This document shows, piece after piece, positions 51,993 through 62,900 of a DNA stretch of 64,000 nt. Origin of the DNA: Actinomycetospora chibensis (GTDB taxonomy: Bacteria; Actinomycetota; Actinomycetes; Mycobacteriales; Pseudonocardiaceae). The stretch lies in NCBI RefSeq assembly GCF_028737215.1, contig NZ_JAQZAM010000015.1:1-64000 (forward strand). Reading direction: 5' to 3'. The notes below the pieces were generated by a model. It saw only the letters and a program-made list of their open reading frames with translations. It did not search any database and was not told the DNA's origin. A program made the translations under genes and the position numbers. Each line of letters opens with the position of its first letter. The first letter of the stretch is position 1.

Positions 51993-51999
51993 TCAGCGC
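51986..51999. terminator. Palindrome spanning convergent stops
   Basis: GCGCTGATCAGCGC is perfectly self-complementary and contains the TGA of the CoA-binding gene and, on the other strand, the TGA of 51993-52394, which abut. Confidence 0.4.
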
Positions 52000-52394
52000 C
52001 GGGCGTGCGCCGAGCCGCCCGTGAACGACCAGGCGGCGACGACCACGGCGCCGACGGTCAGGACCATCGCGCCGGGGACGTGCACGGAGATCGGGCCGTT
52101 GCTGCCGAGGTAGGCCTGCACGAAGGTCAGCGCGAACACGACCAGGGCGAGCACCCCGGGCCACAGCGGCGCCCCGCCCCGCCACACCAGCCCCGCGACG
52201 ATCATGGTGAGCCCGGACAGGACGTGCAGCACGATCGCGCCGGTGGCGTGGGTGTCCGCCGACTGGGACCCCTCCACCAGCGGACCGGCGGTGACGAACT
52301 GCCACAGCAGCGCCAGGACGGTGAGCGACGCGACGACGCGCAGCGCGGTGAGCAGGGCGGGCGTCGTGGCACGGCCGGTCGCGGTGTGGGACAT
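51993..52394 (-). CDS. Four-helix membrane protein with conserved-looking histidines
   Basis: A 133-residue protein with four helices (about 15-37, 48-70, 77-97, 103-123). The second starts HATGAIVLHVLSGLTMIVAG and the fourth has HVPGAMVL, so intramembrane His residues could bind heme or metal as in small cytochrome-like proteins. DUF6220-type membrane proteins are a possible match. ATG 52394 has GGAGGA. The function is unknown. Confidence 0.62.
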   Translation of the reverse strand: MSHTATGRATTPALLTALRVVASLTVLALLWQFVTAGPLVEGSQSADTHATGAIVLHVLSGLTMIVAGLVWRGGAPLWPGVLALVVFALTFVQAYLGSNGPISVHVPGAMVLTVGAVVVAAWSFTGGSAHARR

Positions 52395-52451: not shown

Positions 52452-54041
52452 TCACCACGCGGCGAGACGCTCCGCGACACCGTCCAGCCGGGTGAGGCAC
52501 CGACCCAGCGCGCCGAGCTCGCCGCGCCCCTCCCGCAGGACCTGCAGCGCGATCTCGGGCGGCAGACCCGGGAACGGGCTGAAGCGCGTGCCGATCGCGG
52601 CGCCCACGCCGTCGAGGGCCACGAGGAGCGGCCGGCGGGCCGCGGCCGCCGTCCGGCCCGCCCGGATGGTCGGGGCGGAGGCGCCGACGAGGTCGGCCAC
52701 CCCGGCCGCCTCGGCGATCGCCGCGATCTCGCGGGCGATCTCGCGGGCGGCGGCGTCGTCGGGGGACGGTGAGGTCGGGGCCGCGTGCCGGCCACCGTCG
52801 GTCGGCCCGCTCGCCGGGCGCGGGACCCTCGCGGTGGCCTCGGCCGGCGCGGGCGGGACGGGGAAGCCCGACGGGGTCAGCGGCGGGGTGGGCGCGGCGG
52901 GGGGCTGGGCGGGCCGGGGCGGGCGGTGCGAGGGGAGCCGGACGTGCATCGTGGCGCTCACCGATCCGGGGACGGTGGCGAGCGCCCCCAGCGCGACGAC
53001 GGCCTTGGGGTCGTCGCGCATCCCGGGGACGTGCCCGAGCAGGTCGGCCAGCAGCGCACTGATCCGCGGGGTCCGGCTCGTGCTCCCGGTGAGGTAGACG
53101 TCGACGAGCGCGTCCGGCGTGGTCCCGGCACGGGCGATCGTGTCGGTCAGCTCCTCGACGCTGCGGGCGAGCAGGGGCTCGACGGCGCGCTCGTACTCGC
53201 GGCGCGTCACACGCACCTCGTCGTCGTAGCCCGGCACCCACAGGTTGACCGCGGGCAGCCGCGAGAGCGCTTCCTTGGCCTGCGTGACGTCGCGGCGCAG
53301 CAGCGTGCGGTGCCGCTCGGCGACCCGGCCGGTGGCCTCCCACAGCTCGTTCCAGGCGTCGGGGTCGAGCGCCTCGGCGTGCTCGGCGAGTATCTCCATG
53401 AAGGTCGCGTCGAGGTCCTCGCCCCCCAGCGCGACGTCGCCGCCCGGTGAGCCGGCCAGCTCGAAGCCGTCGCGGCGGCGGCGCAGGACGGCGGTGTCGA
53501 AGGTGCCGCCGCCGAAGTCGTAGACGCCGATCATCCCGCCGTCGGGTACCGGGTCGCCGCTGCGGACGTAGTGGTGCGCGGCCGCCACGGGCTCCGCGAC
53601 GAGGTCGGGCTCGCCGAGCCCGGCGCGCTCGGCGGCCTCGGTGAGCCGGCGCAGCTCCGGGCCGCCCGCCTGCCAGCGCGCCGGGTGGGTGAGCAGGACG
53701 CGCCCGGGCCGCCGGCCGGAGAACCGGCGCGTGGCCTCGCCCGCCACCCGGGCGAGCACGGCCGCGACGAGGTCGACGGTGGCGATCGTGCGCCCTCCGA
53801 GCAGCACCTGCTCGGAGGCGACCAGCGCCCGCTTCGGCACGCGCTCGGTGCGCTCGGGGGCCATCACCGCCTCGTTGACCGCGTCGCGGCCGACCAGGAT
53901 CGTGCCGTCCTCGTCGACGCACACCAACGACGGGACGTACTTCGAGCCGTCGATCTCGAGGACCTCGGTGCGCCCGCCGGCGAGTGTCGCGGTGGTGGTG
54001 AACGAGGTCCCGAAGTCGATCGCGAGGTCCCAGCCGTTCAC
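52452..54041 (-). CDS. Hsp70-family ATPase (operon end)
   Basis: A 529-residue actin/Hsp70-fold protein. It has phosphate-1 WDLAIDFGTSFTTTAT, phosphate-2 GVYDFGGGTFDTAVLR, and the adenosine motif VYLTGSTSRTPRISALL (about 1-370). It lacks a normal DnaK substrate-binding domain; a Pro-rich linker (about 375-435) and a helical C-terminus (EIAREIAAIAEAAGVADLVG) follow. GTG 54041 overlaps the upstream stop as GTGA. It is not the housekeeping DnaK. It probably serves the dynamin proteins of this operon, as chaperone or assembly switch (inference). Confidence 0.85.
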   Translation of the reverse strand: MNGWDLAIDFGTSFTTTATLAGGRTEVLEIDGSKYVPSLVCVDEDGTILVGRDAVNEAVMAPERTERVPKRALVASEQVLLGGRTIATVDLVAAVLARVAGEATRRFSGRRPGRVLLTHPARWQAGGPELRRLTEAAERAGLGEPDLVAEPVAAAHHYVRSGDPVPDGGMIGVYDFGGGTFDTAVLRRRRDGFELAGSPGGDVALGGEDLDATFMEILAEHAEALDPDAWNELWEATGRVAERHRTLLRRDVTQAKEALSRLPAVNLWVPGYDDEVRVTRREYERAVEPLLARSVEELTDTIARAGTTPDALVDVYLTGSTSRTPRISALLADLLGHVPGMRDDPKAVVALGALATVPGSVSATMHVRLPSHRPPRPAQPPAAPTPPLTPSGFPVPPAPAEATARVPRPASGPTDGGRHAAPTSPSPDDAAAREIAREIAAIAEAAGVADLVGASAPTIRAGRTAAAARRPLLVALDGVGAAIGTRFSPFPGLPPEIALQVLREGRGELGALGRCLTRLDGVAERLAAW

Positions 54042-54427
54042 ACCCAGCCGCCGTCGTCGTGCGGCGCGGGGTCGTGGACCGCCGGGTCGTCCCCGGGGTC
54101 GCCGGGGTCGTGCGCGGAGTGCTCGTCCACCACGCCGTCGGCGGGGTCGTCGGCCGGGTCGTCGGCCGGGTCGTCGGGGGACCCGGTCGTGGGGTCGACC
54201 TCGCCGTCCCCGTCGTCGGGGGGGACGTCACCCACCACGACGGCGAGCATGTGCTCCCAGACGGCGTCGGGCAGCTCGCCGTCGTCGACCGCCAGCGACG
54301 CGGTCAGCAGGCTGTGGTCGTCGGACGAGAGCACGGTGTCCGGGTCGGTGTCGGGATAGCGCGACATGTCCAGCCACGCGCCCGGACCTCCGGCGTCCTG
54401 CTGGCCCCCCTCCTGCGACACGGTCAC
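54038..54427 (-). CDS. Acidic repeat-containing hypothetical protein
   Basis: A 129-residue, very Asp-rich protein. Residues about 18-75 look ordered (DMSRYPDTDPDTVLSSDDHS, ELPDAVWEHMLAVVVGD). The rest is low complexity with perfect DDPA repeats from 12-nt tandem repeats around 54150-54180. GTG 54427 overlaps the dynamin stop and its own stop overlaps the Hsp70 start, so it is part of a fixed unit. Its position resembles that of small acidic IniB-type partners in iniBAC loci, but no IniB sequence is seen. Confidence 0.6.
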   Translation of the reverse strand: MTVSQEGGQQDAGGPGAWLDMSRYPDTDPDTVLSSDDHSLLTASLAVDDGELPDAVWEHMLAVVVGDVPPDDGDGEVDPTTGSPDDPADDPADDPADGVVDEHSAHDPGDPGDDPAVHDPAPHDDGGWV

Positions 54428-56274
54428 GACGACTCCTCTCGATCGGCGGGCAGCCGCGTTGCGAGCTGCTCGGCGGTCTCCCTCAGCGCGTTGCGGCGGC
54501 GCAGGCGGGCCTCGACCTCGGCCTTGCGGCGGGCCACGGCGCTCTTCTCGCTCGCCAGGTTCTTCTCGTGCTCGGCGAGGCTCACGGTGAGCCGTTCCTT
54601 CTCCGCTGTCAGCGCCTCGGTGATCTGGCGCCCCAGCACCTCGCGGGCCCCGGCCACCGCCTGCGAGACGACCGGCGGGATCTCGTTGTTCAGCCGGGTG
54701 GCGACCTCGCCGAGGTAGCGGCGGGCGTCCTCGCGGCTGCGGGCGCCGCGCTCCTTGCTCCACCGTCGCCAGCTGAAGAAGCCGACGGCGCCGACCCCGG
54801 CCAGGATGCCGATCGGCGGCGCGACCACGAGGGCCACGAGGTGCCCGAGGCCCATGCCGAGCCCCGCGGCCATGATCCCCTGCTCGGCGAAGCTCGTGCT
54901 GCCCGCGCCGCGGGCCGCCTCGGGCAGCTGGGCGAGGCGCTCGGGGGCGTCCGGCACCACCCCGGCGAGGTCGAGCTCGACGCCCTCGAGGTCGGCGAGC
55001 AGGGCCTGCCCGAGCGCGGTGAGCTCGCGGCGCAGCAATGTGTCGAGCTCGATCCACAGCGCCTGCGCCCGCGGCGGGAGGTCGGTGCCGACCTCGTCGA
55101 AGATCTTGTTGTTGCCGACGGCGATGCGGTCGCCGACCTCCTTGCGCAGGTCCTCGAGGCGCCGGTTGAGCTCGGTGCGCATCCGCTGCTCGAGGCGGGC
55201 CGAGCGCTCCGCGAGCGTCTGGCGCCACGTCGCGTTCTGACCCTGCAGCGCCGTGAGCGCCGCCTTCTCGCGCTTGACCAGCTCGGCGAACTCCGGGCTC
55301 GGCGAGAGCGACAGCGCCCGCCGGACCTGCAGGGCGGACAGACGCTTCACCGTCGCCGTCGCCTGGTGCAGGAGGTTCGCGAGCCGCAGGCCGTCGGCAC
55401 CCTCGGCGAGGCCCGCGAGGTGCTCCGAGAGCGGGTCGATCCCGCTGGCGACGCGCTCCTGCGCCGCCTCCTCGAGCTCGCCGTCGGCCTCGGCGGCGAG
55501 GGCGTCGGCGACGGCGCGGCTCGAGACCCCGAACCAGGGGGCGTCGGCGTAGCGGGGCGCGTGGTGGGCGATGAGCTCGACGTCCCGGGCGCGCACCGCC
55601 TCCCAGGACGGGAACTGGTCGATCTTGGTGATGGCGAAGACGACGGTCGCGATGCGCTCGGTGGCGCGCTCGAGGAAGGCGAGCTCGGAGGCGGTGATCT
55701 CGCTCGAACCGTCGAGGACGAACACCAGCGCGTCGGCGCGGTTCAGCGTCGCGAGGGTCAGCGCGGCGTGGCCGGCGACGAGGCCGCCGACCCCGGGGGT
55801 GTCGATGAGCTCGAGGCCACCCTCGAGCAGCGGGGCGGGCACGCGGACCTGGACCTGGCTGACGTCCTCGTGCTCCGGGGCGCGGGCGCCGGGGTCGAGC
55901 GCGGCGTACTCGGCGATCGCGTCGAGCCCCACCTCGCGCCCCTCGGGGCCGCCGCCGAGCACGACGGTCGCGCCGTCCGGGCCGTGGCTCACGACGATGT
56001 GCACGCAGGTGGCGACGTCGGCGTCGACGGGCAGCAGGCCCGGGCGCCCGATCAGCGCGTTGATGAGCGAGCTCTTGCCGCGCTTCTTCTCCCCGACGAC
56101 GACCACCGCGGCGTTCCCGGCCTGCACGCGGGCGACGTCGGCGTCGAGCGCCTCGGCGGCGCCGGGCTCGTCGTCCTCGACCGCGGTGGCGCGGACGTCG
56201 GCCACCAGCGCGAGGACCTCGTCGGTCAGCGGGTGGCGGCCCCGCGTCGTCGTCGCGGGAGGCTGGAGGGTCAT
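54424..56274 (-). CDS. Dynamin-like GTPase (IniA-type)
   Basis: A 616-residue bacterial dynamin-like protein. The P-loop is GEKKRGKSS (61-69), switch I Thr is at DVATCVHIVV, G3 is DTPG (158-161) and G4 is TKID (216-219). Long helical stalk regions follow. A hydrophobic hairpin (about 470-505, MAAGLGMGLGHLVALVVAPP) could insert in the membrane, and a C-terminal coiled coil is rich in Arg/Glu. It probably remodels or seals the cell membrane as a partner of the dynamin at 57655, since bacterial dynamins often work as pairs. Its stop overlaps the next start (GTGA). Confidence 0.87.
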   Translation of the reverse strand: MTLQPPATTTRGRHPLTDEVLALVADVRATAVEDDEPGAAEALDADVARVQAGNAAVVVVGEKKRGKSSLINALIGRPGLLPVDADVATCVHIVVSHGPDGATVVLGGGPEGREVGLDAIAEYAALDPGARAPEHEDVSQVQVRVPAPLLEGGLELIDTPGVGGLVAGHAALTLATLNRADALVFVLDGSSEITASELAFLERATERIATVVFAITKIDQFPSWEAVRARDVELIAHHAPRYADAPWFGVSSRAVADALAAEADGELEEAAQERVASGIDPLSEHLAGLAEGADGLRLANLLHQATATVKRLSALQVRRALSLSPSPEFAELVKREKAALTALQGQNATWRQTLAERSARLEQRMRTELNRRLEDLRKEVGDRIAVGNNKIFDEVGTDLPPRAQALWIELDTLLRRELTALGQALLADLEGVELDLAGVVPDAPERLAQLPEAARGAGSTSFAEQGIMAAGLGMGLGHLVALVVAPPIGILAGVGAVGFFSWRRWSKERGARSREDARRYLGEVATRLNNEIPPVVSQAVAGAREVLGRQITEALTAEKERLTVSLAEHEKNLASEKSAVARRKAEVEARLRRRNALRETAEQLATRLPADREESS

Positions 56275-56362
56275 CGGGGATCTCCGGAGCTGGTCGGCCA
56301 GGCGTGGCGGGGCCCGTCGAGGGTCTCCGTCCTGGCTGTCGTGGCGGCCGTGGCCGTGCGGC

Positions 56363-56704
56363 TCAGAAGCCGGCGGGGTCGTGGGCGGTGGTGTCGGCCG
56401 TGCCGTCGCGGTCGGTGTCGACGGCCGCGGTGTCGAAGTCGCCGTCGCCGTCGGTGTCCACGACCATCGTGTCGTAGTAGCCGTCGCCGTCGGTGTCCAC
56501 GACCCCGGTCTCGAACGTCCCGTTGTGGTCGGTGTCGGTGACCGTCGTGTCGAGGACGCCGTCGCCGTCGGTGTCGCTCGAGACCGCGTCGACGTTGCCG
56601 GCGGCGTCGGTCTCGTAGGTGCCGATCATGGTGCCGGAGGCGTCGTACACGCCGCCGTCGGCGCTGAAGTACATGTCGCCGGAGGCCCCGGTCGTCCCGC
56701 TCAT
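56363..56704 (-). CDS. Calcium-repeat (DxDGDG) protein
   Basis: A 113-residue protein. Residues about 43-107 are five 13-residue repeats of the pattern VVDTDGDGxxDTx, one with DHNG. This is the dockerin/thrombospondin-3-like calcium loop. The N-terminus (MYFSADGGVYDASGTMIGTY) lacks a signal peptide. It lies between the pseudokinase and the second dynamin gene in the same direction, with a candidate ECF promoter upstream. Calcium binding is likely; a cytosolic calcium sensor or scaffold role is inference. ATG 56704. Confidence 0.72.
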   Translation of the reverse strand: MSGTTGASGDMYFSADGGVYDASGTMIGTYETDAAGNVDAVSSDTDGDGVLDTTVTDTDHNGTFETGVVDTDGDGYYDTMVVDTDGDGDFDTAAVDTDRDGTADTTAHDPAGF

Positions 56705-56757
56705 CGTGTCCGCCCTCGCCCTGTGGCCCGCCGCTGTGGCGGACCGCTCGTGCCTGT

Positions 56758-56784
56758 GACGGTGCGGACCCGCCCGGATGTTCC
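56758..56784 (-). promoter_or_regulatory. Candidate ECF-sigma promoter before the calcium-repeat gene
   Basis: On the minus strand GGAAC (56784-56780), 18 nt, then CGTC (56761-56758), 54 nt before ATG 56704. Spacing and consensus match ECF promoters and mirror the site before the sigma gene (59800-59774). Confidence 0.4.
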
Positions 56785-56821
56785 GGCGGCGCCCACCTTT
56801 TTCGGGAGCCTTTCTCCGGGC

Positions 56822-57658
56822 CTACCCGAGCGCGGAGCGGGCCGCGGCGGCGAGCGTGCCGACGGTGGCGGTGCGCTCGGCCGGCGTCTTGGCCAGCGCG
56901 CCCGCGATGACCGCGTCGAACCCGGACGGGACGCCCGGGCGCTGCTCCGACGGCCGCGGGATCGGGCTCTCCAGGTGCCCCCGCATCCGCTCGGGCAGGC
57001 TCCGGCCGGGGTAGGGCCGGGCGCCGGTGAGGCAGGTGAAGAGCACGCAGCCGAGGGCGTAGACGTCCTCGCGGTGGTCGGTGGCGCCGCCGCGGAAGCG
57101 CTCGGGCGCCGTGTGGTCGAGCGAGAGCCCGTTGCGCGACACGAGCCCGAAGTCGCCGACACGGACCTCGGCCTCGGAGACGTCGGTGAACAGCACGTTC
57201 GACGGTTTGACGTTGCGGTGCGCGAGTCCGCGCGCGTGGGCGGCGGCCAGGGCGGCCGCGACCTGCTCGACGACGGCCACGGCCCGCTCCGGGGTGAGGA
57301 CCTCCTCGCGGGCCAGCACCGCGCCCAGGTCGGGACCGGCCAGCAGGGGCGTCGCGACGAAGAGGCGGCCGCCGGCCTCGCCGTGGTCGAGCACCGGCAG
57401 GACGTGGGGCTCGCGCAGCGTGCGGACGGTGCTGCAGGCCCGGTCGAAGCGGGCGCGGAACTCCCGCTCGGCGCCGTCGGGGGCGAGGAGCTTGAGGGCG
57501 ACGACGCGGTCGCGGGCGGTGTCGTGCGCGCGCACCACCTCGCCGGAGCGGCCCCGGTGGAGGACGTCGGACAGTACGTAGGACCCGAGGGCGGACCGCG
57601 GAGGGCCGGCACGGGGCGGCACGCCCACGACGACCTCCTCCCGCGACCCGGCGATCAC
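56822..57658 (-). CDS. Ser/Thr protein kinase-like protein with HRN loop (pseudokinase)
   Basis: A 278-residue kinase-fold protein made almost only of the kinase domain. It has the Gly loop HRGRSGEVVRAHD (irregular), VALKLL with Lys56, the catalytic loop AHRNVKPSNVLF where Asn149 replaces the catalytic Asp of HRD, DFG with Asp169, TAPERF, and DVYALGCVLFTCLTG. There is no transmembrane or PASTA region. Loss of the catalytic base predicts no or weak phosphotransfer, so a signalling scaffold is likely. GTG 57658 overlaps the dynamin stop (GTGA). It may read out nucleotide or protein state for the dynamins. Confidence 0.82.
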   Translation of the reverse strand: MIAGSREEVVVGVPPRAGPPRSALGSYVLSDVLHRGRSGEVVRAHDTARDRVVALKLLAPDGAEREFRARFDRACSTVRTLREPHVLPVLDHGEAGGRLFVATPLLAGPDLGAVLAREEVLTPERAVAVVEQVAAALAAAHARGLAHRNVKPSNVLFTDVSEAEVRVGDFGLVSRNGLSLDHTAPERFRGGATDHREDVYALGCVLFTCLTGARPYPGRSLPERMRGHLESPIPRPSEQRPGVPSGFDAVIAGALAKTPAERTATVGTLAAAARSALG

Positions 57659-59160
57659 CGGCTCTCCGTTCGAGCCTGCCAGGTCGGGCCCTGCGATGGG
57701 CCGGCGAACAGGATGTGCTCGCACATCTCGCGGGCGGTGCGGACGTGGCGCTGCAGCACCCGCGACGGGCGGGCCTCGAGCGCGCGCCACGCCGGGATCT
57801 GGGCGGTGGCCGCGGCGACCACGGCCTCGCGGTCGGCGCCGGGGTCGAGCCCGAGGCGCCGGGCGTCGTCGCTGCCGGTGGCGAGGTCGCGCAGGCGGGC
57901 GAGGTGCTCGTCGGCGAGGCGCATCCGCCCGGCCTCGAGGTCGACGAGCGCGGCGGCCAGGTCCACCTGGCGCAGGGCGGGCTCGAGGCGCAGACGGTCG
58001 AGCTCGGACTGCAGGGTGAACAGGCTGCGGCGGTCGACCTCGTCGGTGGCGTCCCAGCCGAGGTGCTCGAGGGCCGCGATGCCCGCGCTGGCCCGCAGCC
58101 GGTCGGCGCCCGCGACGAACACGGTGTCGATGCGCTCGAGCACCGTCTCGATCCCCGAGCGCCGCGCGAACCCCTCGAGCAGCGCCGGCGTCGCGCGCCG
58201 GCCCTCGTCGAGCAGCTCGAGACCGACCCGGATGCCGTGCAGGCCGAGCAGCTCGAGGAGCCGCTCGCGGTCCCCGACGTCCACCGGGGCGTCGTCCCAG
58301 CCGCGGAAGCGCTGCACCGTGCGCAGCGCACGGGTGGTCCGCCCGCGGTCGCCGTCGGCGAGGGACCGCAGGAGCCGGGCGTCGGCCTCGCCGAAGTCCG
58401 GCCCGCGGGCGGTCTCGGCGAGCAGCCCGGCCACCGGGACGACGTCGGAGAGCACCGCGCGGAGCTCGCGGGCGTAGCGCTGCGCCACCCGGTGGGCGGT
58501 CGGCCAGGGGTCGTCCTCCCCGGACAGCGTGTCGATGCGGCTGAGGACGCCGATCATGTTCGCCGCGCCGAGGCGCAGGCCGCCGGTCCAGCCGCGCACC
58601 GCGTCGATCGCCTCGACGTCGCGCTCGCCGGGGTGGGGCATGAGGTAGACGACGGCGTCGGCGTCGCCGAGGGCCCCCAGCGAGTCCGGATCGAGTCGGC
58701 TCAGCGAGTCCGTGCCGGGGGTGTCGACGATCGTGTGGCGGCTCAGCGCCTCGTTGGGCGTCTCGACGGTGAGGTGGGCGATCCCGGCGACGTCGGCGCC
58801 CCGATCGGCGACCGTCGCGCCGACGCCGCCCCCGGGCGCGAGCGGCAGCAGCCGGTCGGTGCCGTCGCGGTGGTGCACGCGCAGGCGTGCCTGGTGCGAG
58901 TGCCGGAACCACGTGACGAGCCGCGTCGTCTCGGTGGCGCCGGTGGCCGCGAGCCGCTCCTGGAGCAGGGCGTTGACCAGCGTCGACTTCCCCGCGTTCA
59001 TCCGGCCACCGACGGCCACGCGGATGCTCGGCTCCCCGAGGCGCGCCACGAGCCCGTCGAGGCGGTCGCGCAGCTCGGGGGTGCGCAGCCGGTCGCGGGT
59101 GCGGGTGCAGACCGCGATGAGGCGGGAGGTGACCGGACCGACGGGCCCTGACTCGGTCAT
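57655..59160 (-). CDS. Dynamin-like GTPase (IniC-type partner)
   Basis: A 501-residue dynamin-family protein. The P-loop is GGRMNAGKST (51-60), switch I lies around TGATETTRLVTWF, G3 is DTPG (146-149) and G4 is variant SRID (207-210). Long helical stretches follow (EGRRATPALLEGFARRSGIE, LRDLATGSDDARRLGLDPGA). No obvious membrane hairpin is seen, unlike the partner at 54424. ATG 59160 is 10 bp after the sigma-factor stop; an in-frame upstream extension lacks family sequence. It is probably co-assembled with the other dynamin at the membrane. Confidence 0.85.
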   Translation of the reverse strand: MTESGPVGPVTSRLIAVCTRTRDRLRTPELRDRLDGLVARLGEPSIRVAVGGRMNAGKSTLVNALLQERLAATGATETTRLVTWFRHSHQARLRVHHRDGTDRLLPLAPGGGVGATVADRGADVAGIAHLTVETPNEALSRHTIVDTPGTDSLSRLDPDSLGALGDADAVVYLMPHPGERDVEAIDAVRGWTGGLRLGAANMIGVLSRIDTLSGEDDPWPTAHRVAQRYARELRAVLSDVVPVAGLLAETARGPDFGEADARLLRSLADGDRGRTTRALRTVQRFRGWDDAPVDVGDRERLLELLGLHGIRVGLELLDEGRRATPALLEGFARRSGIETVLERIDTVFVAGADRLRASAGIAALEHLGWDATDEVDRRSLFTLQSELDRLRLEPALRQVDLAAALVDLEAGRMRLADEHLARLRDLATGSDDARRLGLDPGADREAVVAAATAQIPAWRALEARPSRVLQRHVRTAREMCEHILFAGPSQGPTWQARTESR

Positions 59161-59170
59161 GGAGTACTCG

Positions 59171-59731
59171 TCATGCGGTCCGGGCGGCGGGACGGTCGGT
59201 GAGCAGCTCGACGAGGGCCTGGCGGCCACGGGAGAGCTGGGACTTCACGGTGTCGATCGGGATGTCGCGCAGCTCGGCGATCTCGGCGTAGGTGAGGTCG
59301 CACAGCTCGCGCAGCACCACGACGGCACGGTACTGCGGGGGCAGCTGGGCCAGGGCGCGGTCGACGTCCATCCGGGCGACGACGGCGCCGTCGGCGCCCC
59401 GGTGCGGCGTCGGTTCGGGCATCGAGTCGGCCTCGGTCGGCTCGGGGGTGCGCTTGCGCCGGCGGACCTCGTCGATCGCGGCGTTCGTGGCCACCCGGTA
59501 GAGCCAGGTGCCGACCGCCGAGCGACCGTCGAACTCGCCGAGGCGCTTCCAGGCCAGGAGCATCGTCTCCTGGAGCGCCTCCTGGGCGTCCTGTTCGTGG
59601 CCGGTGACGCGCCGGCAGACCGCGTAGAGCCGGGGGCGGTGACGGATCATGAGCTCGGCGAACGCGGCCTGGTCGCCGCCCGCGGCGAGCACCACCAGCT
59701 CGGTGTCCGCCCGCCCGTCCGACACGCTCAC
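59171..59731 (-). CDS. ECF-type RNA polymerase sigma factor
   Basis: A 186-residue sigma-70 family protein with only regions 2 and 4. Region 2: LYAVCRRVTGHEQDAQEALQ, TMLLAWKRLGEFDGRSAVGT, WLYRVATNAAIDEVRRRKR. Region 4: LPPQYRAVVVLRELCDLTYA, EIAELRDIPIDTVKSQLSRG. No anti-sigma gene is adjacent; downstream genes encode dynamins, a pseudokinase and Hsp70 instead. GTG 59731 is preceded by a palindrome and a candidate ECF promoter, so autoregulation is likely. It is the first gene of the operon. Confidence 0.9.
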   Translation of the reverse strand: MSVSDGRADTELVVLAAGGDQAAFAELMIRHRPRLYAVCRRVTGHEQDAQEALQETMLLAWKRLGEFDGRSAVGTWLYRVATNAAIDEVRRRKRTPEPTEADSMPEPTPHRGADGAVVARMDVDRALAQLPPQYRAVVVLRELCDLTYAEIAELRDIPIDTVKSQLSRGRQALVELLTDRPAARTA

Positions 59732-59746
59732 CGACCCCTCCCGCTC

Positions 59747-59765
59747 TGGTCACCATCGGTGACCA
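59747..59765. promoter_or_regulatory. Palindrome just upstream of the sigma gene
   Basis: TGGTCACC-ATC-GGTGACCA has perfect 8-bp arms and lies 15 bp before GTG 59731, inside the probable 5' leader. It could be an operator or a translational control hairpin. Confidence 0.45.
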
Positions 59766-59957: not shown

Positions 59958-62900
59958 GTGCCCGCCGCGACCGACAGGCAGACCGACGTCGGCGGCGACC
60001 TCGCCGCGCGCGTCGCCGCCCTCGGCACCGCGGACGCCCACCGGCTGCGGCGCCGCCTCCAGGGCGCCGGCCGGATCGACGACGCGGAACGGCGCGAGAG
60101 CACGCTGGCCGCCATCGGCCGCGACGTGACCGCCGCCGAGGCGCGCCTCGAGCGCCGCCGGGCCTCGGTGCCCACCGTCTCCTACCCCGACGAGCTGCCG
60201 ATCAGCGGGCGCGTCGACGACATCCGTGCGGCCCTCGGGACCCACCAGGTGGTCGTCGTCGCCGGCGAGACCGGGTCCGGCAAGACCACGCAGCTGCCGA
60301 AGATGGCGCTCGAGCTGGGCCGGGGCGTGCTCGGCACGATCGGCCACACCCAGCCCCGGCGGATCGCGGCGCGCACGGTGGCCGAACGCGTCGCCGAGGA
60401 GCTCGGCACCACCGGCACCGACACCGTCGGCTACCAGGTCCGCTTCACCAGCCGCGCGAGCGAGGACACGCTGGTCAAGCTCATGACCGACGGCATCCTG
60501 CTCGCCGAGATCCAGCAGGACCGGATGCTGCGCCGGTACGACACGCTCATCATCGACGAGGCCCACGAGCGCAGCCTCAACATCGACTTCCTGCTCGGCT
60601 ACCTCGCCCAGCTACTCCCCCGCCGCCCCGACCTCAAGGTCATCATCACCTCGGCGACGATCGACCCGGAGCGGTTCTCACGACACTTCGGCGACGCGCC
60701 GATCATCGAGGTCTCCGGGCGCACCTACCCCGTCGAGGTCCGCTACCGGCCGCTGGTCGACCCGGATGATCCCTCGGCTGACCAGCGCGACCAGGTCGAC
60801 GGCATCGTCGACGCCGTCGACGAGCTCCGTCGCGAGGGTCCGGACGGCGACGTCCTCGTCTTCCTCTCCGGCGAGCGGGAGATCCGCGACGCGGCCGACG
60901 CCCTGCGCGAGCACGCCGCCCAGGCCCACATCGAGGACCTCGACGTCCTCCCCCTCTACGCGCGCCTGTCGTCCGCCGAGCAGCACCGGGTCTTCGAGCC
61001 GGCGTCGGGCGGCCGACGACGCGTCGTGCTCGCGACGAACGTCGCCGAGACGTCGCTGACCGTCCCGGGCATCCGCTACGTCGTCGATCCCGGCCTCGCG
61101 CGCATCTCGCGGTACTCGCGGCGGACCAAGGTGCAGCGGCTGCCGATCGAGCCGATCTCGCAGGCGTCGGCCACCCAGCGGGCCGGGCGGTGCGGGCGCG
61201 TCGCCGACGGCATCTGCATCCGGCTCTACGCCGAGGACGACTTCGACGCGCGGCCGGAGTTCACCGACCCGGAGATCCAGCGCACGAACCTCGCGTCGGT
61301 GATCCTGCAGATGGCCGGCGCAAAGCTCGGGCCGGTCGAGGAGTTCCCGTTCGTCGACCCGCCCGAGCGGCTCGCGGTGCGCGACGGTGTGCGGCTGCTG
61401 ACCGAGCTCGGCGCGTTGGTCGACGGAGACGCGACGCGGCTGTCGGAGACCGGGCGCCGGCTCGCGCGCCTGCCCGTCGACCCCCGCATCGGGCGCATGG
61501 TGCTCGAGGCCGACCGGCTCGGCTGCCTGCACGAGGTCACGGTCATCGCGGCCGGCCTCTCCGCGCAGGACCCCCGGGAGCGGCCGGCCGACAAGAGCGA
61601 CGAGGCCGACGCCGCGCACGCCCGGTTCACCGACCCGCGCTCGGACTTCCTGTCCTGGGTGCACCTGTGGGAGCACGTGCGCTCGGGGCGCCGCGAGCTC
61701 TCGTCGAACCAGTTCCGCAAGCGCTGCGGGGCCGAGTTCCTCAACTTCCTGCGCATCCGCGAGTGGCAGGACCTCGCGGCGCAGATCCGCCAGCTCGGCG
61801 ACGAGCTCGGGCTCACCCGCAACGAACCCGGCGCGGAGATCACCAAGGACCTCGCGGACCGCGTCCACCAGGCCCTGCTCACCGGCCTGCTCTCGCAGAT
61901 CGGGCTGGCGCAGGAGCCGCCGAAGGACCCGAAGACCGGGAAGCCGCGGCGTCGGGCGATCACCGAGTACGAGGGCTCGCGCGGCGCCCGCTTCATGCTC
62001 TGGCCGGGCTCCACGCTGGCGAAGCGCCCGCCCACGATGGTCATGGCCGCCGAACTGGTCGAGACCTCGCGGCTGTGGGCGCGCACGGTGGCGGGCGTGG
62101 ACCCGGCGTGGGTCGAGGCCGCGGCGGGCGACCTCGTCACCCGCACGTACACCGAGCCGCGCTGGTCGAAGCGACGCGGCAGCGCCGTGGCCACCGAGCG
62201 CGTCACGCTGTTCGGCGTCCCGCTGGCCATGGACCGCACCGTCGACTACGGGCGCATCGACCCCGAGGTGGCCCGCGAACTCCTCGTGCGCCATGCGCTG
62301 GTCGAGGGCGACTGGAACACCCGGCACGCGTTCGTCACGCGCAACCGCGAGCGCCTCGAGCAGGTCGCCGAGATGGAGCGCCGCGCCCGCCGCGAGCTGG
62401 TGGTCGACGACGACGAGATCTACGCCTTCTACGACGCGCGCGTGCCCGCCGACGTCGTCTCGGTGCGGCACTTCGACCGGTGGTGGCAGAAGGCCTCGCG
62501 TCGCGATCCGCATCTGCTCGACCTCGACCCGCGGGCTCTGCTGGCCGGCGAGGCCCCCAGCACCGAGCAGTACCCCGACACCTGGAACGCCGGCGGGCTG
62601 ACCCTGCCGCTGTCCTACGCGTTCGAGCCCGGCGCCGAGACCGACGGCGTCACGGTCACCGTGCCGCTCGCGGTGCTCGGGCAGGTCCGCGCCGAGGACC
62701 TCGCATGGCAGGTCCCCGGGCTGCGCGACGAGATGCTCACCTCGCTGGTCCGATCGCTGCCCAAGAACCTGCGGCGCTCGCTGGTGCCCGCGCCGGACAC
62801 CGCCCGCGCGCTCGCGGCCCGGCTCGCCCACGACCGACGGCCCGCCGCGGACGAGCCCCTGCTGCCGGCCCTGTCCGACGCGGTCCGCCGGCTGTCCGGT

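Follow-up and report, generated by a model that had tools for sequence, protein, structure and literature searches.

Gene content and layout of the locus

In the window analysed here, a stretch of 64,000 nucleotides from Actinomycetospora chibensis, seven open reading frames (ORFs) with coding-like codon use follow one another on the minus strand at 52452..59731. They encode two bacterial dynamin-like GTPases and an Hsp70-like ATPase, together with a sigma factor of the extracytoplasmic function (ECF) type, a pseudokinase, a repeat protein and a small acidic protein. The host genome has a size of 6.18 Mb in 55 contigs, with the studied locus on contig C6. This operon belongs, in reduced form, to a wider association that links dynamin pairs to an Hsp70-type ATPase and to a factor of the GrpE type. 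Its features are given below in gene order, starting with the sigma factor (aa, amino acids).

59171..59731, minus strand: ECF-type sigma factor, 186 aa, GTG start (Pfam Sigma70_r2 and Sigma70_r4_2)
57655..59160, minus strand: dynamin 1 (dyn1), bacterial dynamin-like GTPase, 501 aa (Pfam Dynamin_N)
56822..57658, minus strand: pseudokinase, 278 aa (Pfam Pkinase; motifs; ratio of non-synonymous to synonymous substitution rates, dN/dS)
56758..56784, minus strand: ECF-type promoter-like site, GGAACATCC-N14-CGTC (conservation in Actinomycetospora loci)
56363..56704, minus strand: DxDxDG repeat protein, 113 aa (13-residue repeats; no Pfam family above cut-off)
56275..56362, minus strand: remnant at the position of the GrpE-like gene of relatives, 88 bp (alignment with three relatives)
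54424..56274, minus strand: dynamin 2 (dyn2), bacterial dynamin-like GTPase, 616 aa (Pfam Dynamin_N; match to IniA 6j72)
54038..54427, minus strand: small acidic protein of 129 aa whose N-terminal motif is conserved (homologues beside dynamin pairs)
52452..54041, minus strand: Hsp70-like ATPase, 529 aa (Pfam HSP70; AlphaFold2 model; Foldseek)

The sigma and dyn1 genes are separated by 10 bp, and overlaps of 4 bases join dyn1 to the pseudokinase gene, dyn2 to the small acidic gene and the latter to the Hsp70-like gene. Wider gaps are found between the pseudokinase and repeat genes (117 bp) and between the repeat gene and dyn2 (88 bp). The original prediction, made from the letters of the window, had described seven same-strand genes, three overlaps of 4 bases and a gap of 10 bp, all of which proved to be correct at these coordinates; the 117-bp and 88-bp gaps went unmentioned in it. 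On the sigma side, the operon is bounded by a divergent helicase-like gene of 1334 aa at 59958. The dN/dS values are well under 1 for all genes except the small acidic one (0.35–0.83); those of the sigma gene in the pair L038/L041 (0.807/0.616) were dropped as an artefact, the second sigma gene of L038 having been compared. A 133-aa same-strand gene at 51993-52394, 57 bp downstream of the Hsp70-like gene, was not counted in the set; it has a DUF6220 match below the cut-off and is present too in A. callitridis (L036).

The two dynamins and the Hsp70-like ATPase

Both GTPases exceed the Pfam cut-off of 27 bits for Dynamin_N (43.7 bits for dyn1 and 65.5 for dyn2). The solved IniA structure 6j72 is matched by dyn2 at 8.6e-30 across residues 22–374 and by dyn1 at 2e-10 over residues 28–173 only, the GTPase part. 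Within the genus, dyn2 is up to 99% identical to Actinomycetospora proteins.

The Hsp70-like protein possesses the actin-like nucleotide-binding domain of Hsp70s. Its Pfam HSP70 match (7.9e-29) covers positions 103–368 of the 599 in the profile, i.e., the nucleotide-binding half only, and the best 50 PDB matches of its AlphaFold2 model (Foldseek) are Hsp70 family chains or complexes containing them. This model, built with 24 sequences and with a mean pLDDT (predicted local distance difference test) of 87.1, is ordered to about residue 355, falls mostly below 50 at residues 362–420 and ends in a helical bundle at 427–528. There is no strand in that bundle, and neither AlphaFold2 nor Pfam gives a substrate-binding beta domain in the C-terminal part, for which reason we do not consider the protein a classical chaperone. 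The C-terminal part also varies among relatives, with WD40 repeats in Parafrankia (L044) and PQQ-type repeats in L048 and L058.

Probable loss of the GrpE-like gene

In the relatives of this operon, a GrpE-like gene of 106–135 codons stands directly before dyn2. Of the 9 other Actinomycetospora loci listed, 8 have a 4-base overlap between the two genes, and in L041 they are 73 bp apart. Eight GrpE-like proteins, taken from dynamin loci belonging to several families, were scanned, and each scores over the Pfam GrpE cut-off, in one case by a narrow margin (26.1 versus 25.8). While the other nine Actinomycetospora regions with a dyn1 relative all keep this gene, no GrpE domain was found in the studied operon, where the corresponding position holds 88 bp, about 255 bp fewer than in A. 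callitridis, the remainder having diverged. The "complete" machine of the original prediction is therefore missing a component that its relatives retain (9/9). Because the remnant itself has diverged while the proteins flanking it are 98–99% identical to those of A. callitridis, an assembly fault is less likely than loss of the GrpE-like gene in the lineage of this strain. The genome contains three GrpE matches, none of them within 20 kb of a dynamin match. A GrpE match at C26:12318-15718, far from dynamin matches, adjoins Hsp70 matches.

Dynamin pairs and their neighbours in other genomes

A dyn2 match was present in 100 of the 200 genomes searched. We examined two sets of loci: an order sample, comprising 89 of the 125 listed places outside the source genome, taken down the ranking and read as six-frame ORFs, and a named collection of the best 80 loci of the dyn2 scan, which is biased to close relatives. 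No dynamin pair was recognised in L070, L111 and L224, and L072 (a second A. straminea locus) was excluded from the order and genus sets.

The order sample contains 54 pairs with dyn1 first, 34 with dyn2 first and one place without a recognised pair. A GrpE-like gene stands between the dynamins in 49/54 dyn1-first and 1/34 dyn2-first pairs, and within 6 kb of the pairs there is an Hsp70-like gene in 22/54 and 33/34, a gene of the repeat type in 34/54 and 1/34, and an ECF sigma gene in 1/54 and 1/34, respectively. The chance expectation per 16-kb stretch, from 3 GrpE and about 10 Hsp70-like places in one genome, would be about 1% for GrpE and about 3% for Hsp70-like genes. Some of the Hsp70 matches near dyn2-first pairs could be housekeeping DnaK. 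The 70 named loci from outside Actinomycetospora comprise 59 dyn1-first and 9 dyn2-first pairs, with 2 lacking a recognised pair. A GrpE-like gene lies between the dynamins in 44 of the 59, which have nearby Hsp70-like (13), repeat (37), ECF sigma (6) and small acidic (2) genes; all 9 dyn2-first loci have an Hsp70-like gene near and four have an ECF sigma gene.

These counts bear on whether nothing more than common descent and transfer has kept the genes side by side, with the Hsp70-like and GrpE-like proteins doing general or unrelated work. The 32/54 dyn1-first pairs of the order sample without an Hsp70-like gene within 6 kb would fit such a situation, as would the studied locus in dispensing with its GrpE-like gene. 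However, the position of the GrpE-like gene between the dynamins in so many dyn1-first pairs and the finding of the same kit, without the kinase, in Acidimicrobiales (L074) argue against it, and we regard it as quite improbable. The L074 locus carries GrpE-like, ECF sigma and small acidic genes, dyn1, dyn2, an Hsp70-like gene and two repeat genes, which suggests that the kit recurs there independently; no kinase of the type of the studied locus was found in the Acidimicrobiales loci. The small proteins of L074 (4.7e-4) and L069 (4.9e-3) match the studied small acidic family weakly, and that of L060 gave no match to it. The Hsp70-like gene is missing from the short contig of L069, and no GrpE-like gene was found in L060.

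Lineage of dyn2 and comparison with iniBAC

We placed the studied protein in a dyn2 tree of 74 proteins chosen from the loci, a quick, midpoint-rooted tree with Shimodaira–Hasegawa-like approximate likelihood ratio test (SH-aLRT) support, no bootstrap and no reference IniA sequence. It falls in a clade of 24 rows (SH-aLRT 98) with relatives from Parafrankia, Microbispora, Dactylosporangium, Actinomadura and Streptomyces, while another copy of the same genome, on contig C51, belongs to a separate clade of 17 rows (SH-aLRT 99), mostly in the IniA-like dyn2-first order. Gene order varies inside both, L208 being dyn1-first within the IniA-type clade and the Streptomyces members dyn2-first within that of the studied locus. 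Actinomycetospora alone represents the Pseudonocardiaceae in the 24-row clade (an Amycolatopsis protein, P0057, with 41% identity, was outside the tree sampling), and acquisition of the operon by transfer from outside the family would be the simplest reading.

The studied locus resembles iniBAC in having two adjacent dynamin-like genes, with the match of dyn2 to IniA mentioned above, and dyn2-first pairs are often near an Hsp70-like gene (33/34 in the order sample, not all of them placed in the tree). However, iniA comes before iniC in iniBAC whereas dyn1 precedes dyn2 here, and the studied operon starts with an ECF sigma gene and has relatives carrying a GrpE-like gene. No IniB or IniR annotation was found among the listed Pfam and NCBIfam matches of the seven proteins, no IniB or IniR sequence having been compared. 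An assignment of the locus to iniBAC was rejected on the dyn2 tree and because this genome carries an IniA-type locus elsewhere. The earlier suggestion that the operon is not captured by the iniBAC description thus holds, since it forms a lineage separate from that second locus. DynA/DynB of Streptomyces, which have a role in sporulation septation, are likewise an actinobacterial dynamin pair.

In the IniA-type locus of the same genome (L118, C51:76000-95500), dyn2, dyn1 and an Hsp70-like gene follow one another. Upstream of them lies a gene of 481 aa, rich in Asp and Ser at its end, and downstream a convergent gene for an AAA/TPR/LuxR regulator. The genome has a third dynamin pair, a divergent one (L119, C52:130500-149500), which is followed by a repeat-type protein, and no GrpE-like or Hsp70-like matches were found in that stretch.

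Pseudokinase, repeat protein and small acidic protein

The Pfam Pkinase match of the kinase-like protein (7.9e-28) covers residues 30–263 of 278. The VALK and DFG motifs are retained and HRD is replaced by HRN, with loss of the catalytic Asp. Among the short-form kinases of 8 other Actinomycetospora genomes, HRN is found in seven and HCN in one; the kinase of A. termitidis has 550 residues, an intact HRD and, by eye, a membrane segment. With dN/dS values of 0.14–0.19 in four species pairs, indicative of purifying selection, the pseudokinase protein is evidently kept, and its description as a catalytically broken kinase is supported. A kinase like that of A. termitidis was considered as its ancestor, but a paralogue in the own genome is at least as close (52% versus 47%, obtained with different programs).

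The repeat protein consists of 13-residue DxDxDG units (alignment of 16 sequences), a motif that suggests calcium binding. AlphaFold2 models it as short strands set one after another (mean pLDDT 84.9), a fold for which no PDB match was obtained at E <= 0.001. It reaches no Pfam family cut-off (14.2 bits versus 27 for DUF6802), the DUF6802 cut-off being exceeded by its relative beside a dynamin pair in Lentzea (L075). No Pfam family was found over cut-off for the small acidic protein either; its homologues adjoin dynamin pairs in Actinomycetospora, Parafrankia and Microbispora.

Presence of the operon in Actinomycetospora

A dyn1 relative (at least 56% identity) is present in 10/18 Actinomycetospora genomes, the source genome included; among the eight without one, G209 is 59% complete. 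In all nine other genomes with a dyn1 relative, all eight gene classes, the GrpE-like one included, lie within 6 kb of the dynamin pair, and the same is true of 8/8 Actinomycetospora loci in the named collection, a sample that overlaps the nine genomes. The repeat and kinase genes are swapped in A. termitidis. The unit sits between the helicase-like gene and a pyridoxal phosphate (PLP)-enzyme gene, which are 8.4 kb apart here and 8.8–21.8 kb apart in eight relatives. Where there is no operon, these two genes are separated by about 1.6 kb (G201, G203 and G207) or about 3.0–3.3 kb (G212 and G204); in G208 and G213 they are on separate contigs. In A. termitidis (G216) the site is empty (1.7 kb) and the operon is found on another contig. 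It follows from the flank spacing and the A. termitidis copy that genomes have the unit either whole or not at all, and that it occupies two chromosomal sites. The idea that the set would stay together is therefore supported within Actinomycetospora (9/9) but not for a spread over Pseudonocardiales, with 10/18 genomes in the genus itself and an ECF sigma gene near 1/54 and 1/34 pairs.

Such a patchy presence at two chromosomal sites could also be that of an immunity (conflict) system, in which the dynamins would be membrane-acting effectors or sensors, restrained by the pseudokinase and by a switch made of Hsp70 and GrpE, along the lines suggested for double-GTPase systems. The DO-GTPase/GAP1-N2 conflict systems described in passages of Kaur et al. 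2020 (PMC7159879) are linked to HSP70, GrpE and HSP70 without the peptide-binding domain, although the term dynamin has 0 occurrences in that paper and a dynamin pair replaces the DO-GTPases here. In Streptomyces virginiae (L047), two proteins over DO-GTPase cut-offs lie between the Hsp70-like gene and dyn2, while the seven proteins of the studied operon gave no DO-GTPase match at E <= 0.1. The PADLOC models of LeoA (1.8e-20) and LeoBC (3.9e-16) match dyn2, LeoA (1.4e-12) matches dyn1, and the kinase-like protein matches PD-T4-6 (up to 9.8e-77). However, the region matched by the Leo models is the fold that dynamins have in common, and as many as 34 different PADLOC models match the kinase domain, which reflects the kinase fold and not defence. 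LeoABC (Eleos) is not known to have an ECF sigma, Hsp70 or GrpE. Most genes of the operon are, moreover, under purifying selection and not variable between close species. An immunity function appears to us unlikely.

An Actinomadura locus (L045) has, like L047, a pair of small GTPase-like genes separating the Hsp70-like gene from dyn2 (by eye in L045), which may connect these loci to conflict systems. In Acrocarpospora (L058) vWA, DO-GTPase and tubulin-like proteins surround the dynamin and Hsp70-like genes.

The ECF sigma factor and a conserved promoter-like site

The sigma protein matches Sigma70_r2 (6.5e-20) and Sigma70_r4_2 (4.6e-19) in Pfam and leaves region 3 unmatched, which is the ECF architecture. 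Among the best 25 of 98 NCBIfam families, the sigma70-ECF superfamily is the only one at cut-off, and SigM (136.5 bits versus a cut-off of 190) or any other named factor was rejected within these 25. Early "sigma" matches in Lentzea and Amycolatopsis, each about 218 aa long, resembled response regulators (one, L075, was read), and the sigma model was rebuilt without them.

The promoter-like site sits in the 117-bp gap between the kinase and repeat genes, 53 bases before the latter. Its 27-base form, GGAACATCC-N14-CGTC, recurs upstream of the repeat gene in 10/10 Actinomycetospora loci, and it is kept in A. termitidis despite the altered gene order there. A looser ECF pattern is likewise found upstream of the repeat gene in 10/10 loci, versus a mean of 0.17/10 and a maximum of 2 in shuffled sequences, and in 0/10 within the 250 bp upstream of the sigma gene. 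An ECF site before the sigma gene was thus rejected, and the "self-regulated" operon of the original prediction is not supported; it is the repeat gene that the conserved site precedes, and the sigma factor of the operon may read it there. Just upstream of the sigma start, at 59747-59765, there is an inverted repeat (GGTCACC-GAT-GGTGACC), partly conserved in relatives, which is a possible operator, and other conserved blocks are also present upstream of this gene.

Outside Actinomycetospora, GGAACA-N16..18-CGTC precedes a kit gene in 2/11 other loci bearing an ECF sigma gene, with 5 sites (before grpE and hsp70 in Parafrankia L044, and before dyn2 and two hsp70 genes in Dactylosporangium L048). 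It also precedes a kit gene in 4/149 loci without ECF sigma, again with 5 sites, in Microbispora and Planotetraspora, all of them in the 24-row dyn2 clade of the studied locus. Five altered control patterns gave 0 sites in Actinomycetospora, 0–1 in the 11 loci and 0–3 in the 149, so that the sigma-less set is not outstanding by number of sites. One further genomic place of the site precedes a TetR-like ORF, the inspection of which gave no result.

ECF sigma factors often serve envelope stress, and the locus could accordingly be imagined, as in the original prediction, as a repair system in which the sigma factor senses membrane or wall damage, the dynamins patch it and the Hsp70-like and repeat proteins take part in a repair complex. 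IniA is reported to mediate membrane fission (PMC6715688) and iniBAC to respond to cell-wall drugs (PMC5760070), which would favour this possibility. Against it, the locus falls outside the IniA-type clade, and Pfam (E <= 0.1) gave no match to an anti-sigma family for the seven proteins. We find envelope repair rather doubtful.

A proposed mechanism

We lean, on balance, towards a membrane-remodelling machine built on two dynamins and equipped with an Hsp70-type control module of its own, partly under ECF control. Like other bacterial dynamin pairs, and judging from their family, dyn1 and dyn2 would together coat the cytoplasmic membrane in a mixed assembly driven by GTP. The domains and the gene linkage suggest that the Hsp70-like ATPase would spend ATP to load, remodel or dismantle this coat, and that the GrpE-like protein would reset the ATPase by nucleotide exchange. 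Having lost the catalytic Asp and being under purifying selection, the pseudokinase is probably a binding switch and not an enzyme. The small acidic and repeat proteins might act as adaptors or scaffold, which is the weakest step. From the internal ECF-type site, the sigma factor would drive the repeat, GrpE-like, dyn2, small acidic and Hsp70-like genes. In this strain, because the GrpE-like gene was lost, a housekeeping GrpE may substitute for it, or the Hsp70-like ATPase may cycle slowly.

Several observations weigh against this mechanism. Gene linkage is not protein contact, an Hsp70-like gene is missing from the 6 kb around 32/54 dyn1-first pairs in the order sample, and the Hsp70-like protein is without the substrate-binding beta domain with which it might grip a dynamin. 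The GrpE-like gene, lost with its neighbours intact, is dispensable at least here. As for the regulation, the link between site and sigma factor is thin outside Actinomycetospora (2/11 with sigma and 4/149 without), and among the 44 sigma70_r2 matches of the own genome, any one might be the reader of a GGAAC site. The strict site occurs there at 4 places, versus 2 for a backwards control, and therefore no wider regulon can be claimed.

Paired bacterial dynamins, IniA/IniC included, have been studied as self-sufficient membrane GTPases. No description of the dynamin-Hsp70-GrpE set was found in open-access titles and the starts of abstracts; subscription journals lie mostly outside this material, so that the absence is weak evidence. 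More tentatively, there may be a general actinobacterial class in which a heteromeric dynamin coat is remodelled by a dedicated Hsp70 motor that lacks the substrate domain, together with a short GrpE. The IniA-type loci would be included because they too lie beside Hsp70-like genes, and one branch would be the ECF-controlled, pseudokinase-switched, block-mobile unit described here. If true, this chaperone-driven dynamin class would be a bacterial counterpart of Hsc70 uncoating. Many dynamin pairs of this order carry a nearby Hsp70-type ATPase, a GrpE-type factor or both, and this linkage makes it testable whether the Hsp70 cycle controls bacterial dynamin assembly. Since pairs in the IniA order share the Hsp70-like neighbour (33/34), the answer also bears on a drug-stress locus of medical interest.

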